A stretch of 64,000 nt of DNA, from positions 1 to 64,000 of the forward strand of contig JADFZT010000011.1 in NCBI GenBank assembly GCA_015232395.1, written 5' to 3'. The DNA is from Magnetococcales bacterium. GTDB lineage: Bacteria > Pseudomonadota > Magnetococcia > Magnetococcales > JADFZT01. The notes below the pieces were generated by a model. It worked only from the letters and a program-made list of their open reading frames with translations, was not told the origin of the DNA and searched no databases. Positions within the stretch are counted from its first letter, which is position 1; every line of letters begins with the position of its first letter. Shown in pieces: positions 6,565 through 19,946 of this stretch. The position numbers were made by a program, and so were the translations under genes.

Positions 6565-8454
6565 ATGATCGAAACCTTCCATTTTATCCGGCCTGGGTGG
6601 CTGTGGGCTCTGATTCCCCTGACGCTGGTGGTTGTCTGGCTGTTTCGGCGTACCCGGGGGGGAGCTGAATGGCAGGCCTTTTGTGATGCCCATCTCCTGC
6701 CCCACCTGCTCCACGGTGAAGCGGGGGGGCGCTCCCAAGGGCCGTTGTGGCTGCTGGCCATGGGCTGGCTGGTGGGTGTTTTGGCCTTGGCCGGTCCCGC
6801 CTGGGAAAAAGTCCCCGAACCCATCTTTCGTCCCCAAAATCCCCTGATCATTCTTCTGGATCTTTCCACCTCCATGTTGGCTGGTGACATAAAGCCCTCC
6901 CGACTGGTGCGAGCCAAACAAAAAGTGCGGGATATTTTGGCTCGGGACCGGGGGGGGCAGACGGGGCTGGTGGTCTTTGCCGGGAATGCCTTTGTGGTCT
7001 CCCCACCCACCGATGATGCTGGGGCGATGATCGCGCTTTTGGATCCGCTCCATCCGGGGATTATGCCTGCCCAGGGGAGCCTGCCCCATACCGGTATGAG
7101 CAAAGCCCTGGAAATTCTCAAACGCTCCCAACTGGGGCGGGGCAGGGTGCTGGTCATTACCGACGGGGACGCCGCACCCTCCCAATCCCTGGAGGCGGTG
7201 GGACAGCTCACCGAAGGGGGACATCGGCTCTCGGTGCTGGGGGTGGGGAGCGCCGAGGGTGGGCCGATTCCGTTGGGGGATGGGCGGGGGTTTCTCAAGG
7301 ATGGTCGCGGGCAGATGGTGATTGCTCCCCTGGAGGCCGAATCTTTGGCGGCATTGGCTCGATTGGGGGGTGGGGCATACAGCGCCCTGACACCGGATGA
7401 GGGAGATCTGGATCGCCTGCTCTCCGGGGGGGAGGTGGTCATGGGCTCCGATGTGGTGGGGATGGATCGCGCCCGGGAGCGGTGGCGGGATGAGGGAATT
7501 TGGTTGCTGCTTCTGCTTTTGCCCATGGGGGTGTTGGCGTTTCGTAGAGGTTGGGTCTTTATCGTGGTGGGTGGCGTTGGCCTCGCCCTGACACCTCCGG
7601 CGGGGGCCTTCACCTGGGCGGATCTCTGGCAGCGGCCCGATCAACAGGGGGCCGCAGCCCTTGAGGCGGGGGATCCTCAATCGGCAGCCAAGCTCTTTCG
7701 TTCTCCCCAGTGGCAGGGGGTGGCCCAATATCGGGGAGAAAATTATGGCCAGGCTGCGGAAACTTTTAGTCAGCTGGCAAGCCCCGACGGCTATTTCAAC
7801 CAGGGTAACGCCCTGACCCGGGAGGGCCGGGTACCCGAGGCGATGGCCGCCTACGAATCCGCCTTGAAGGAAAATCCCGATCATGAGGATGCCCGCTTCA
7901 ATCTGGAGCTGCTGAAAAAATATCTCGAAGAGCAGCAGCAACCATCCCAGCAGGGCGGTGAGGGGGAAAAGTCCGACAGCCAGGAGGAGGGTCAAAAGGG
8001 GGAGCAGGGGGAGCAGGGAGAGCAAGGGGAGCAGGGGGACTCTTCTGATCAGGAGGGCTCTGAGGGGGATTCCCAGTCAGGTGAGCCGTCGGGGGATGAG
8101 CAGGAGGCCAACTCTTCCGGTGGTTCAGAGGAGAAGGATCCCCGGGAGGATGATCCGCGACTGGATCAGGAGCAGGGAAAAACGCCGGAAGCTGAGGAAG
8201 AAAGCCCGGAGGAAAAGTCCAGCGCTGCTCAATCCCAAGGTGATCCCGGGGAAGAGGAGCAAGAGGCAAAACCCCAGCAGGCCCAAGCCGAAAAAATGGA
8301 TCCGGAGGCCGCCGCCCGGGAGCAGGAGATGGAGCAGGCGATGGAGCAGCTGTTACAACGGGTGCCGGATGATCCGGGGGGGTTGTGGCGGAGAAAATTT
8401 CGCCGTCGCCATCTGCGCCAGGGGGGATCGGAATATGGAGGAGCACCATGGTAG
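6565..8454 (+). CDS. BatB/BatC-like fusion: vWA domain plus TPR
   Basis: 629 residues. N-terminal membrane segments (about 10-28 and 60-77) are followed by a von Willebrand A domain with an intact MIDAS motif D99-L-S-T-S103. A further hydrophobic stretch lies near 312-350, then TPR repeats (GYFNQGNALTREGRVPEAMAAYESALKENPDHEDARFNLELL), then a long acidic low-complexity tail with GEQGEQGEQGEQG. In Bacteroides and others BatA/BatB (vWA) and BatC (TPR) are separate; here BatB and BatC are fused. The Bat set is linked to oxidative-stress tolerance and envelope integrity. MoxR and BatA are not in the window. It overlaps batD by 7 bases. Confidence 0.85.
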   Translation: MIETFHFIRPGWLWALIPLTLVVVWLFRRTRGGAEWQAFCDAHLLPHLLHGEAGGRSQGPLWLLAMGWLVGVLALAGPAWEKVPEPIFRPQNPLIILLDLSTSMLAGDIKPSRLVRAKQKVRDILARDRGGQTGLVVFAGNAFVVSPPTDDAGAMIALLDPLHPGIMPAQGSLPHTGMSKALEILKRSQLGRGRVLVITDGDAAPSQSLEAVGQLTEGGHRLSVLGVGSAEGGPIPLGDGRGFLKDGRGQMVIAPLEAESLAALARLGGGAYSALTPDEGDLDRLLSGGEVVMGSDVVGMDRARERWRDEGIWLLLLLLPMGVLAFRRGWVFIVVGGVGLALTPPAGAFTWADLWQRPDQQGAAALEAGDPQSAAKLFRSPQWQGVAQYRGENYGQAAETFSQLASPDGYFNQGNALTREGRVPEAMAAYESALKENPDHEDARFNLELLKKYLEEQQQPSQQGGEGEKSDSQEEGQKGEQGEQGEQGEQGDSSDQEGSEGDSQSGEPSGDEQEANSSGGSEEKDPREDDPRLDQEQGKTPEAEEESPEEKSSAAQSQGDPGEEEQEAKPQQAQAEKMDPEAAAREQEMEQAMEQLLQRVPDDPGGLWRRKFRRRHLRQGGSEYGGAPW

Positions 8455-15401: not shown

Positions 15402-16145
15402 ATGAAGCAGCTGCTTTTTTACAAAAAACCCGTGGCCATCAACAAAAAAACCCACGCCAACACCCTCGTCAAGCCGCCGGGGAGCGATTTTTCCTTTGCG
15501 CAAAAAACCAGCTTTGTCGCCCTCGCAGGCCACGAGTTTGCCCACGCTGCCAAGGAGTATGCCATCGTTTTTGCCAAGGCCGGCGGGGGGCAGGGGCAGA
15601 TCGCACCGGTGGTGCTTTTGGGGCTGCGCTCCAAGGAAAACCTGCTGGTGGATGAGGATGGCAGATGGCGGGGACGCTATATTCCCGGCTTTGTTCGACA
15701 ATACCCCTTCCTCTTGGGCAGGGGGATCGACTCCACCACCAAAATGGCGGTGTGTGTCGATTCCGACTATAAGGGGTTTGATGCCCAGGAGGGGGAGCGG
15801 CTTTTCAACGATGATGGGGAGTATGCCGCCTATCTCAAGCAGTCGGTGGATCAGCTACAGACCGCCCAGGGCCAGTTTACCCGCACCGGCACCTTTGCCG
15901 AGAAGCTTAAATCACTGGATCTATTGGTGGAGATAACCGCCCGTTCGGGTTTTACCGGGGATAAGCCCTTTACCATGAAGGGGCTTTATATGGTGGATGA
16001 AAAACGCCTGGTGGCTCTCAAGGACAAACAGGCTTTGGAGCTTTTCCGCACAGGTGAAATGGGCTGGATCTACAGCCATCTGATCTCCATTTCCAACATG
16101 CGTCGTCTGGTGGATCTCCTGGCGGTGCGGGTGGCTTCTGCTTGA
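15402..16145 (+). CDS. SapC family protein
   Basis: 247 residues. The body matches the SapC family, named after a gene of the Campylobacter fetus S-layer locus: FVALAGHEFAHAAKEYAIVFAK, VVLLGLRSKENLLVDEDGRWRGRYIPGFVRQYPFLLG, then FNDDGEYAAYLK. The ending GLYMVDEKRLVALKDKQALELFRTGEMGWIYSHLISISNMRRL is also family-like. There is no signal peptide and the biochemical role is unknown. It lies ahead of surface-sugar genes in the same direction, which fits a link with cell-surface assembly. Confidence 0.8.
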   Translation: MKQLLFYKKPVAINKKTHANTLVKPPGSDFSFAQKTSFVALAGHEFAHAAKEYAIVFAKAGGGQGQIAPVVLLGLRSKENLLVDEDGRWRGRYIPGFVRQYPFLLGRGIDSTTKMAVCVDSDYKGFDAQEGERLFNDDGEYAAYLKQSVDQLQTAQGQFTRTGTFAEKLKSLDLLVEITARSGFTGDKPFTMKGLYMVDEKRLVALKDKQALELFRTGEMGWIYSHLISISNMRRLVDLLAVRVASA

Positions 16146-16236
16146 TGGTTGCCGAAACGGGGGTTGATTTGGCTGCTCTGGGGGGAGCAACCCAGGGCTG
16201 GAAGCATCAGCGGTCAAGCTGAGATCGGGGAGGGAG

Positions 16237-16956
16237 ATGGCAGCCAAAAAAGTGGCCACTGTGACGGCTACCCTGGAGGGTTTCCAGCGGGCCAAGGCGC
16301 TTTTTGCGGCTATTGAGGCCGCTTCGGAGCTGGAGCTGTTTTTGATCGCAGCCGGGGAGGTGGTGGCCTCAACCCCTCTGGTCGAAGGTTCCGGTTTACC
16401 CATCACCGCTACGGTTATCAACCGCCTGCCGGGGGAGGATGGGGTCAGCCGATCCAAATCCCTGGGGCTTGGGGTGATGGCTTTTGCCGATCTTTGGGCC
16501 TCCCTCACCCCGGATCTTCTGCTCCTGACCGGTCATGAACCCGAAATGGTGGCCGCAGCCCAGGCCGCCCTGCCTGCCCGGATTCCCATCGTTCATCTCC
16601 ACCCGTCGGCACCTCCCCGGGGGCCGATCCGGTGGGCGGCCATGGATAGCCTCAGCAAAATGTCCCACTTGCACCTGATCCAAGGGGAGGGGGCTTGCCA
16701 ACGCCTGACCCGGATGGGTGAAGCCCCGGAGCGGCTTTTTGATCTGGGCCAGTGGGGTGAGGGTTGGCCCCAAGGGGTGGTCCGCACCCTGATTGAGGCG
16801 GATGTTGCAGGCTTGATCCAAAAAACCTTCCACGATCTGAACACTTCTGCCGATTTTCTGAATGCTGAAACCCTCCAAGCGTTGCGTCAAGCCCGCAAAG
16901 GTGAAAATCTCACGACCTGGGATTCGGTCGATGGGTTGATCAAGAGCGCTGAATGA
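16237..16956 (+). CDS. Degenerate, half-length NeuC-like UDP-GlcNAc 2-epimerase homologue
   Basis: 239 residues, start with GGGGAGGGAG ahead. It follows the N-terminal lobe of NeuC-type hydrolysing epimerases: SKSLGLGVMAFADLWASLTPDLLLLTGHEPEMVAAAQAALPARIPIVHLH, then SLSKMSHLHLIQGEGACQRLTRMGEAPERLFDLGQWG. Active-site blocks of the family are altered from memory of it: RAEYG is replaced by LEGFQ, GDRYE by GHEPE, and HGGE by HPSA. The C-terminal lobe is missing (relatives are about 370-390 residues). The frame is intact and well translated, so this is a re-purposed or dying paralogue rather than a working epimerase. Confidence 0.65.
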   Translation: MAAKKVATVTATLEGFQRAKALFAAIEAASELELFLIAAGEVVASTPLVEGSGLPITATVINRLPGEDGVSRSKSLGLGVMAFADLWASLTPDLLLLTGHEPEMVAAAQAALPARIPIVHLHPSAPPRGPIRWAAMDSLSKMSHLHLIQGEGACQRLTRMGEAPERLFDLGQWGEGWPQGVVRTLIEADVAGLIQKTFHDLNTSADFLNAETLQALRQARKGENLTTWDSVDGLIKSAE

Positions 16957-17068
16957 AAAGCAGCCGGGTTCATTCCATTTCTGAAGTTTTTTGCTGATTG
17001 TGCCGATAGGGAGGCATGGGGATGTGGATGCCCCGCTCCGTACTCCTTTTTGATCGGAATGTCAGCCC

Positions 17069-18193
17069 ATGTCGGAACCGTCTCCCCCGGGGAAGGGGGT
17101 CTATCTCATCGCCGAAGCCGGGGTCAACCACAACGGCTGCCTCGATACCGCTCTGGCTCTGGTGGATGCCGCCCAACAAGCCGGGGCGGATGCTGTCAAA
17201 TTTCAGACATTCAAAGCCGAAAATCTGGTCACCACCACCGCCCCCAAAGCCCGTTATCAAACAGAAACCACCGATCCCGGTGAATCCCAACTGGCGATGC
17301 TGAAGGCCCTGGAGCTGGACCATGGGGCGCACCTGAAGCTGGCTACTCACTGTTGGGAGTTGGGGATTGCATTTCTCTCCACCCCTTTTGATGTTTCAAG
17401 CCTGGGATTTTTGGTGGATGATCTGAAACTGGAGAGCCTGAAACTCTCCTCCGGGGCCATCACCCATGGGCCATTGTTGCTGGCAGCCGGGCAAAGCGGC
17501 AAAAAAATCATCCTCTCCACCGGTATGTCTACTCTGGAAGAGGTGGAAAAAGCCTTGGATCTGCTCGGGGTTGGGATGATTGACCAGGAAATGGCAGGAA
17601 AATTGCAAAAAGGTGCTCTTGACGACAGGTGGGGGGAATATTTGTCCGCTATCCGCCACTCCCCGGAAGCGGCAGCGGTGTTGCAGAGGCAGGTGACTCT
17701 CCTCCATTGCACCACCGCCTACCCCACCCCACCGGTCGAGGTAAACCTGAGAGCCATGGATACCCTGAGGACCCGTTTTGGGCTTGAAGTGGGCTTTTCC
17801 GATCACTCCCAGGGCATCGCCATTCCCATGGCCGCTGTGGCTCGGGGGGCGGTGATGGTGGAAAAACATTTTACCCTGGATTGCAGCCAGCCGGGTCCGG
17901 ACCACCGGGCCTCTTTGGAGCCAGCGGCTTTCAAGGCCATGGCCCAGGGGATTCGGGAAATTGAGGCGGCTTTGGGAGATGGCGAAAAAATCCCCACCGC
18001 CACGGAGATGCAAAACCGTTCGGTGGTGCGTGCCAGTCTGGTGGCGCTTGAGGATATCGCCCAGGGGGAGACCCTGACCCGTCAAAATTTGGGGGTCAAA
18101 CGCCCTGGAACCGGCCTCTCTCCCATGGAGTATTGGCACCATTTGGGCAAGGCCGCCAAGCAGGATTATCGCAAAAACCAGCCCTTGGCCTGA
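17069..18193 (+). CDS. neuB: N-acetylneuraminate/legionaminate synthase family (NeuB-type)
   Basis: 374 residues. It condenses phosphoenolpyruvate with a 6-carbon N-acyl amino sugar to form a nine-carbon nonulosonic acid. Seen: IAEAGVNHNG near the start, DAVKFQTFKAENLVT, KIILSTGMSTLEEVEKAL, CTTAYPTPPVEVNLRAM, GFSDHSQGIAIPMAAVARGAVMVEKHFTLD, and a C-terminal SAF (antifreeze-like) domain VVRASLVALEDIAQGETLTRQNLGVKRPGTG. Whether the product is sialic, legionaminic or pseudaminic acid cannot be told. The amidotransferase next door favours legionaminic- or pseudaminic-type sugars. Confidence 0.88.
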   Translation: MSEPSPPGKGVYLIAEAGVNHNGCLDTALALVDAAQQAGADAVKFQTFKAENLVTTTAPKARYQTETTDPGESQLAMLKALELDHGAHLKLATHCWELGIAFLSTPFDVSSLGFLVDDLKLESLKLSSGAITHGPLLLAAGQSGKKIILSTGMSTLEEVEKALDLLGVGMIDQEMAGKLQKGALDDRWGEYLSAIRHSPEAAAVLQRQVTLLHCTTAYPTPPVEVNLRAMDTLRTRFGLEVGFSDHSQGIAIPMAAVARGAVMVEKHFTLDCSQPGPDHRASLEPAAFKAMAQGIREIEAALGDGEKIPTATEMQNRSVVRASLVALEDIAQGETLTRQNLGVKRPGTGLSPMEYWHHLGKAAKQDYRKNQPLA

Positions 18194-18320
18194 GTCGGGG
18201 ATGGTTGTTGGAAATCCCCCCTGGACATTGAGACCCGGGGGGGATGCATGGAAAAAGCCTTTGGAATGATCTGGCGGAAGCCGGATCGGGATTGCCTAAT
18301 AGATAGAGTCGAGGGGTCTT

Positions 18321-19529
18321 ATGAGCGAGCGTATCAAGGTGGAAAAGCGGGATATCATCTCCCAATACAATCTCCCCCGGGAGGTTCGGTTTTGCAAAAA
18401 GTGCACGATCTCCAATCAGCGGCCCCGGATTACCTTCGATGAACACGGGGTGTGCAGCGCCTGTAATTTTGCGGCGTTTAAGCAGAGCCTGGATTGGAAA
18501 AAACGGGAGGAGGAGCTGGCCCGGTTGTGTGACCGTCATCGCCGAAGCGATGGCTCCCACGATGTGATTGTGCCGGTCTCCGGGGGCAAGGATGGCGGGT
18601 TTGTCGCCCATCAGCTGAAGTTTAAATATGGCATGAACCCCCTCACCGTGACCTGGGCTCCCCACCTGACCACTGAAATCGGTCGTCTCAACCTGGAAGC
18701 CTTTATCGATTCCGGGTTCGATAACATCTATGGCCGCCCCAATGGGGAGGTGCATCGCCTGATGACCAAGCTTTCGTTCCAATATTTGGGCGATCCCTTC
18801 CAGCCCTTCATCTATGGCCAGGCCAACCTGCCTTTGCAGGAGTCGATCACCCGGGGCATTCCCCTGATCATGTATGGTGAAAACGGCGAGGTGGAGTATG
18901 GCGGCGACATGAAAAATGCCTTCCGCCCCACCCGGGAGATCAGCGATCACGACAAGCACTATTTTTCCGGCATTCCCCCGGAAGCGTGGCAAAAGCACGG
19001 CATCAGCGCCAAGGATCTCCACTACTATCTGGCTCCCCCGATAGAGAAGATCAAGGCCAATCAGACCGAGATTCACTTTCTCGGCTACTATAAAAACTGG
19101 GATCCCCAGGAAAACTTTTACTACTGCACCGAAAACACCAACTTTACCCCCAATCCGGAACGTACCGAGGGGACCTATTCCAAATATGCCAGCCTGGACG
19201 ACAAGCTGGATGGTTTCCACTACTATCTCGCCTTCATCAAGTTCGGCATTGGTCGTGCTGTCTCTGACACCGCTCACGAAATCCGTGACGGCAAGATCAC
19301 CCGGGAAGAGGGGGTGGCCCTGGTGCGTAAATATGACGGAGAGTTCCCGGCCCGCTATTTTGAGACCTTCCTGGATTACTGCAACATCAGTGAGGAGGAG
19401 TTCCGGGCGGTGATCGATAGCTGGCGTTCGGACCATCTCTGGCAAAAACGGGGAGATAACTGGCGCCTACGCCATGCGGTGTGGCACGCCTCCGAGACCA
19501 GTCAGCGGTTTCAGGGGGTGGCGGCTTGA
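18321..19529 (+). CDS. N-acetyl sugar amidotransferase (PseA/WbpG family)
   Basis: 402 residues. An ATP-dependent PP-loop enzyme (SGGKDGG near 92-98) with two N-terminal Cys pairs, CKKC and CSAC, probably holding zinc. HYFSGIPPEAW and the C-terminal block IGRAVSDTAHEIRDGKITREEGVALVRKYDGEFP are typical of the N-acetyl sugar amidotransferase family used to make amidino sugars in LPS and in pseudaminic or legionaminic flagellin glycans. It follows neuB by 127 bases and ends the surface-sugar set at a strong terminator. Confidence 0.88.
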   Translation: MSERIKVEKRDIISQYNLPREVRFCKKCTISNQRPRITFDEHGVCSACNFAAFKQSLDWKKREEELARLCDRHRRSDGSHDVIVPVSGGKDGGFVAHQLKFKYGMNPLTVTWAPHLTTEIGRLNLEAFIDSGFDNIYGRPNGEVHRLMTKLSFQYLGDPFQPFIYGQANLPLQESITRGIPLIMYGENGEVEYGGDMKNAFRPTREISDHDKHYFSGIPPEAWQKHGISAKDLHYYLAPPIEKIKANQTEIHFLGYYKNWDPQENFYYCTENTNFTPNPERTEGTYSKYASLDDKLDGFHYYLAFIKFGIGRAVSDTAHEIRDGKITREEGVALVRKYDGEFPARYFETFLDYCNISEEEFRAVIDSWRSDHLWQKRGDNWRLRHAVWHASETSQRFQGVAA

Positions 19530-19569
19530 TGGTTTGTGGTTGAGGCTGCTTGTTACACAGAAAGAATTC

Positions 19570-19612
19570 CAAAGAGCCCGTAGCGTTTTCAGCGTTGCGG
19601 GCTCTTTGTGTT
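19570..19612. terminator. Rho-independent terminator
   Basis: CAAAGAGCCCG pairs perfectly with CGGGCTCTTTG across 17 bases and is followed by TGTTTT. It sits 40 bases after the amidotransferase stop and can also serve the opposing minus-strand genes. Confidence 0.8.
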
Positions 19613-19670
19613 TTACGGTGAGTGGGTCTGTTATTCAGGGAATGAATCGATTGGCGTCATGGATGAGTGG

Positions 19671-19946
19671 CTAGGAGTTGGATTTGGTGTGGCTTTTTCC
19701 CCATTGGGCGAGGAGTTCACCCAAAGCGGCCTGGCGATCCTGACCTTCCTTCAGGCTGTGCTGGAATTGATCCAACTTTGATTTCATTTCGTCCAGGGCC
19801 TGCTGATTTTTTCCTTGCAGGGTTTGGAGCTGCTCGGTATTGCGCTGATCCAAAAATCGCAGCTGACCCATGAGATCCCCCTGGATGCGTTTGGTTTCCC
19901 GGGTGATGCGCTTGATGATTTTTTTCTTGAGCTTCTTTTTTTTCAT
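19671..19946 (-). CDS. Small basic coiled-coil protein
   Basis: 91 residues beginning MKKKKLKKKIIKRITRE, then a heptad-rich stretch (GDLMGQLRFLDQRNTEQLQTLQGKNQQALDEMKSKLDQF). No known domain. Its ATG overlaps the stop of the upstream gene as ATGA, so the two are translationally coupled. It is likely a small partner of the membrane protein encoded upstream. Confidence 0.65.
   Translation of the reverse strand: MKKKKLKKKIIKRITRETKRIQGDLMGQLRFLDQRNTEQLQTLQGKNQQALDEMKSKLDQFQHSLKEGQDRQAALGELLAQWGKSHTKSNS

Follow-up and report, generated by a model that had tools for sequence, protein, structure and literature searches.

The open reading frame at positions 16237 to 16956 (+) of the 64,000-nucleotide stretch of Magnetococcales contig JADFZT010000011.1 analyzed here (the window) is, judged by its sequence, a real and unusual gene, encoding a NeuC pseudoenzyme with a single lobe and an antitoxin tail at its C terminus. 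We refer to its product as half-NeuC. Our first choice among the explanations, to which we give a probability of about 0.45, is that half-NeuC has been retained as a dimerization or regulatory pseudoenzyme; decay into a relic comes close behind.

Gene structure and locus

As the initial annotation stated, the frame is complete (239 amino acids [aa], ATG start, no internal stop in the ORF reading) and lies beside neuB. Its left neighbor is a SapC-like gene, and an intact neuB of the N-acetylneuraminate/legionaminate synthase type (17069 to 18193, +) follows 112 bp downstream. This neuB clears the NCBIfam cutoff for NnaB (TIGR03569, 450.5 bits versus 399.65) and is the only close synthase of its type in the genome, other matches being 32 to 36% identical. 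NeuB has an insertion at about aa 167 to 207 that three other synthases (L102, L038, and L039) lack; all 8 aligned synthases of families f5 and f9 have it in a form shorter by 10 residues. A WbuX-type N-acetyl sugar amidotransferase gene comes next (18321 to 19529, +; TIGR03573, E value 1.8e-100), followed by a strong terminator-like stem-loop at 19570 to 19608 (+), identified by pattern match alone. Pattern searches returned no sigma-70-like promoter in 15900 to 19700 and no forward terminator-like site between half-NeuC and neuB. Given this spacing of signals, with a terminator-like stem only after wbuX, the half-NeuC gene, neuB, and wbuX may form one transcript.

A NeuC lobe without its catalytic site

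The initial annotation's proposal of homology to the first lobe of NeuC was confirmed far above chance. Half-NeuC belongs to the Epimerase_2 superfamily (Pfam PF02350; E value 2.2e-15, 56.8 bits against a gathering threshold of 30.6), aligns to positions 1 to 175 of 365 in the NCBIfam NeuC profile (TIGR03568; E value 3e-25), and matches the Protein Data Bank entries 5xvs and 5zlr (E value 6.4e-18). Its TIGR03568 score of 88.9 bits lies under the equivalog cutoff of 235.9. The lobe occupies aa 1 to 174 (16237 to 16758, +) and is recognizable from profile matches and from an AlphaFold2 (AF2) fold match as a Rossmann lobe without catalytic side chains. A structure prediction compared with NeuC, the check originally suggested, bears this out: the AF2 model (mean pLDDT, 80.9; 83 to 98 by block up to aa 170, 73 to 78 at aa 171 to 190, and below 60 beyond) matches 5xvs with a Z score of 25.8 and an rmsd of 2.2 over 194 aligned residues. 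Residues 3 to 197 of the model fall on residues 1 to 375 of the chain, the range expected if the predicted helix after aa 178 occupies the place of NeuC's last helix.

The first annotation had also described active-site motifs as lost, and they are. In our own alignment-based mapping onto human GNE, whose numbering is in part provisional, the equivalents of Arg19, Asp112, Arg113, Asp143, and Arg147 are all changed in half-NeuC. More broadly, among 52 sites at least 95% constant in 21 NeuC proteins (two further columns, gaps in half-NeuC, were dropped), 24 are kept and 28 (54%) are changed. Losses took 13 of 15 such sites in active-site loops, as we delimited them, versus 15 of 37 elsewhere (Fisher P = 0.005). 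In the GNE study, the five residues named above are catalytic acids and UDP-contacting arginines, the D143A and E134A mutants are inactive, D112A retains about 2% activity, and most UDP contacts carry second-lobe residue numbers (PMC4793188). Since the key side chains are changed and most UDP contacts of GNE lie in the second lobe, half-NeuC is expected neither to bind the nucleotide nor to turn over sugar.

An internal deletion that spares the C-terminal helix

We built a NeuC profile of 399 positions from 21 intact proteins of the order, the source genome's own and 20 encoded by relatives. Half-NeuC matches it twice, with aa 2 to 174 on positions 9 to 186 (109.5 bits) and aa 179 to 203 on positions 371 to 395 (2.9 bits). 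Against a profile of the 32 C-terminal positions, aa 172 to 207 score 15.2 bits, a value reached by 0 of 2,000 shuffles (best, 6.7). The ends of relatives' NeuC proteins, such as ...LINKKFHDL and ...ILKKQFHDFNPGDF, resemble the ...GLIQKTFHDLNTSADF of half-NeuC. Four residues (aa 175 to 178; 16759 to 16770, +) thus stand in place of profile positions 187 to 370, the 184 positions that make up the entire second lobe, and the two-lobe GT-B fold is lacking. The natural NeuC end is kept as a C-terminal helix and end at aa 179 to 206 (16771 to 16854, +). Because aa 179 to 203 match the NeuC C terminus, the deletion is internal rather than a truncation of the end: on the alignments, lobe 2 is excised and the C-terminal helix, which in the predicted arrangement packs against lobe 1, is kept. 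The initial description of a lost second lobe therefore stands as to lobe 2, although the residues that follow it in NeuC survive. A continuation into lobe 2, in which a "TFH" of half-NeuC was at first aligned to a "TYH" at the start of that lobe, was set aside in favor of the NeuC C terminus, which fits better.

Pattern of divergence

We asked whether the divergence of the NeuC part looks like decay or like constraint. Identity relative to that among intact enzymes is high in helix alpha4 (aa 104 to 114; 1.25), strand beta4 (0.97), and helix alpha3 (aa 69 to 90; 0.85) and low in two catalytic loops (0.22 and 0.37), alpha5 (0.44), and alpha6 (0.36). The GNE dimer is formed by alpha3, alpha4, and alpha5. 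Two of these three helices are thus conserved in half-NeuC to about the degree seen in intact enzymes, and alpha5 is not. Outside the invariant sites, identity is 0.28 for half-NeuC versus mostly 0.34 to 0.43 among intact enzymes.

For comparison, real NeuC genes of living relatives were evolved neutrally in silico until 54% of constant sites were lost, assuming even neutral change, no insertions or deletions, and one or few equilibrium GC values (0.52 to 0.66). Between 1.7 and 4.8% of runs stayed free of stops, depending on GC (840 runs each), as did 57 of 1,260 in a second set. At nonconstant sites, 504 of 525 neutral runs ended less NeuC-like than half-NeuC. The observed contrast was reached by 16 of 1,260 runs for alpha3 to alpha5, by 1 of 1,260 for alpha3 plus alpha4, and by 0 of 1,260 both for the block from alpha3 to beta5 and for the catalytic loops; that block, the loops, and the dropping of alpha5 were all chosen post hoc; the choice of dimer helices follows the GNE paper. 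Since the catalytic loops are hit hardest and alpha3 and alpha4 are spared, evenly spread neutral decay of the NeuC part as a whole appears unlikely. The pattern speaks for a long past period as a folded, noncatalytic protein, a period that may since have ended. The "fresh decay" offered initially as one possibility fits badly with a terminal branch of 3.08 (median, 0.093) in the NeuC tree, 28 of 52 constant sites changed, a stop-free frame, and patterned loss. As for the other possibility offered, a regulator or scaffold for NeuB, a noncatalytic role is compatible with the kept alpha3, alpha4, and C-terminal helix, but dimerization with full-length NeuC seems at least as likely as partnership with NeuB.

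A foreign antitoxin tail

The last 32 residues of half-NeuC (about aa 208 to 239; 16858 to 16956, +) derive not from NeuC but from a DinJ/RelB-type antitoxin, whose C-terminal, toxin-binding tail is fused here in frame and ends at the antitoxin's own stop. Small frames in three other genomes matched the end of half-NeuC. When aa 189 to 239 were used as the query (E value ≤ 0.01), 4 of 60 relatives, the source genome apart, gave matches. In three of them (L033, L034, and L035) the matching segment is the C-terminal portion of an antitoxin with a YafQ-like toxin downstream, the toxin being matched in pieces or incompletely in L033 and L035; in the fourth (G005), a short tail alone lies ahead of the toxin. 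That last locus (L057, contig C312, about positions 7340 to 7690) is thus a second instance of a bare tail, with 24 matched aa before the YafQ-like toxin and no recognizable antitoxin N terminus. At the DNA level, 16861 to 16960 is 77% identical over 101 bp to the intact dinJ-yafQ pair of L034, spanning the stop and the toxin start. In intact pairs the toxin gene starts in a stop/start overlap, which here corresponds to 16954 to 16960 (+), and no significant toxin remnant, and hence no adjacent cognate toxin, was found downstream of half-NeuC (86 and 264 of 500 shuffles reached the score). Only antitoxin codons 55 onward match, so the ribbon-helix-helix N-terminal domain is missing. No Pfam family, PF04221 included, is found in aa 189 to 239 alone, and the homology of the tail rests on the relatives' proteins.

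Tail and intact antitoxins differ by a dN of 0.11 to 0.17, versus 0.15 to 0.24 between intact antitoxins, rough values from 29 codons and three relatives; differences between tail and antitoxins lie mostly at third codon positions. Among 19 sites identical in the three antitoxins, counted by eye, 2 are changed in the tail, versus the 28 of 52 changed in the NeuC part (Fisher P = 0.001). Two glutamates constant in the other antitoxins are changed. Tail sites are kept far more often than NeuC sites, which means either that catalysis was lost long before the fusion or that selection maintains the tail.

Relatives and the source genome

Matches to half-NeuC occur in 44 of 61 genomes (E value ≤ 1e-5; three of them tail only) and in 71 of 398 (E value ≤ 1e-8), the source genome being included in both counts. 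Among the matches listed, tail-only ones apart, all but the window's lie in open frames of at least 246 aa. The 246-aa frame (L102), a candidate second single-lobe form, merely runs off a contig end, and the next shortest is 350 aa. No second single-lobe NeuC was seen among the matches in the 61 and 398 genomes, nor was the half-length form beside neuB for which a search of related genomes had been suggested. The initial annotation took full-length orthologues as a sign of local decay, and in a sense they are what was found: every relative detected is full length, so that only one genome of the set has the single-lobe form. A scan of proteins from genome contigs for the chimera gave 45 pattern stretches, none of them a relative; an exact-match scan for the junction, from which the source genome was possibly left out, gave 0 records; and 9 matches in plasmid records were all annotated neuC and covered aa 16 to 174 at most.

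The end branch of half-NeuC is the longest in the tree, and owing to this long branch the tree gives it no placement among the NeuC families. The five proteins closest to it by substitution score all belong to family f9. Each of the five f9 genomes fetched carries a full-length neuC immediately upstream of neuB, the position that half-NeuC occupies. In three f5 genomes fetched, neuC lies 1 to 6 kb from neuB, and in the fetched loci of G009 and G005 no neuB was seen near neuC.

At 4.94 Mb, the draft source genome comprises 170 contigs. Contig C17 carries at its left edge a gene for a full-length NeuC (open over 382 aa; 40% identity over half-NeuC aa 46 to 174), and one further Epimerase_2 protein is encoded on C96. 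C17 begins inside the NeuC gene (L002), which is followed by formyltransferase-like and PIG-L-like genes, named by eye, and not by neuB. On contig C21 (L042, about positions 1490 to 2001), the source genome has its own dinJ-yafQ pair, whose toxin frame is without the usual C-terminal end; from its sequence, this toxin may be inactive.

Origin and possible role of half-NeuC

Going beyond the observed anatomy, lost side chains, fold prediction, foreign tail, and patterned divergence, we infer the present function, the partner, and the order of events. An old neuC beside neuB would have lost its enzyme role, with a full-length NeuC encoded elsewhere in the genome. A deletion would have removed the second lobe but spared the C-terminal helix that folds against lobe 1, leaving one predicted Rossmann lobe with no nucleotide binding or turnover expected and with two of the three dimer helices. 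Half-NeuC would have been kept as a noncatalytic dimer partner, most likely of itself or of full-length NeuC, and this pairing would tune flux into NeuB. Later, the 3′ end would have been joined in frame to a dinJ-like antitoxin tail and the toxin gene lost. Against retention as a pseudoenzyme partner stand the lack of any single-lobe orthologue in the 61 or 398 genomes, the poor conservation of alpha5, and the low identity outside the invariant sites; a gene that was long constrained and lost lobe 2 only recently would look alike. The same lack of orthologues in 398 genomes sustains a somewhat less probable reading, in which a diverged neuC paralogue, once constrained, is now a pseudogene in which deletions eroded lobe 2 and then dinJ-yafQ, its frame open by chance and youth. 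Occurrence in a single genome, the missing toxin gene, and the longest end branch by far all fit such a relic; a deletion could yield the foreign tail, and long open frames, many antisense ones among them, abound in this GC-rich window. Less easily reconciled with it are an open frame despite 54% change at invariant sites (the outcome of 57 of 1,260 or 0.017 to 0.048 of neutral runs), losses not evenly spread as under neutrality, a deletion that stops at natural fold boundaries, and a tail without clear relaxation of constraint (2 of 19 sites changed).

Antitoxin tails of this kind may suffice for toxin neutralization. Half-NeuC could be a stand-alone antidote in which the tail still blocks YafQ-type toxins and the NeuC lobe replaces the ribbon-helix-helix domain as a stable, dimeric carrier. 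The low dN with its mostly third-position differences and the keeping of 17 of 19 tail sites, against 24 of 52 NeuC sites, agree with this. So does the general binding of toxin by the C-terminal part of type II antitoxins (PMC4803016). We nevertheless regard it as improbable: no intact cognate toxin was found, the genome's one good YafQ match has its own antitoxin and an incomplete C-terminal end, two otherwise constant glutamates are changed, and recent fusion equally explains the conservation of the tail. Still more doubtful, on the sequence, is a two-ended adaptor whose dimerization lobe would pair with NeuC while its tail would bind RNase toxins of the YafQ kind. There is only a slim chance that two stretches were misjoined within the gene during assembly. 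The draft assembly is split into 170 contigs, the junction is in no independent record (exact match, the source genome possibly left out), and GC drops from 0.63 in aa 1 to 174 to 0.53 to 0.55 beyond, both within the range of the window's other genes; yet NeuC parts flank the internal deletion on both sides, and the antitoxin join is in frame, beside neuB where relatives have neuC. Split GT-B enzymes are known, Alg13/Alg14 being an example, and a single Rossmann lobe of a two-lobe fold recalls them. That half-NeuC works with a second lobe encoded elsewhere is nonetheless scarcely credible, as the source genome has no separate lobe-2 gene, its full-length NeuC being the only good match, and the catalytic side chains of lobe 1 are gone.

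Comparison with known systems

Half-NeuC resembles NeuC and the hydrolyzing UDP-GlcNAc (or diNAcBac) 2-epimerases (5xvs and 5zlr) in the sequence and fold of lobe 1 and in its C-terminal helix and end, and it resembles NeuC of f9 genomes in lying directly upstream of neuB. It departs from NeuC in its length (239 versus about 390 aa), in its foreign tail, and in lacking the second lobe as well as catalytic and nucleotide-binding side chains. With DinJ/RelB-type antitoxins (PF04221) that accompany YafQ it shares the last 32 residues and the stop/start overlap, but it has neither the ribbon-helix-helix domain nor an adjacent toxin. Pseudoenzyme partners of metabolic enzymes are a known general class, which half-NeuC recalls as a dead paralogue beside a live enzyme in the genome, its dimer surface partly kept; it differs in missing a whole lobe and in its added antitoxin tail. 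Narrow literature searches, which do not prove absence, turned up no report of a truncated epimerase serving as a pseudoenzyme in the synthesis of sialic acid and none of domesticated or solitary antitoxin fusions.

If functional, half-NeuC would be an enzyme turned into a one-lobe regulator by deletion along the natural seam of its fold, and an antitoxin tail would have been recruited into an unrelated protein; lobe deletion and tail gain are two separable events. If the adaptor reading were true, surface-sugar synthesis would be tied to toxin-antitoxin signaling. If a relic, the gene would show a toxin-antitoxin module eroding into its neighbor. In the phage collection, one record matches half-NeuC, FPLJ01000048.1 (Moritella viscosa), annotated as a 2-epimerase and 25% identical over 87% of the query.
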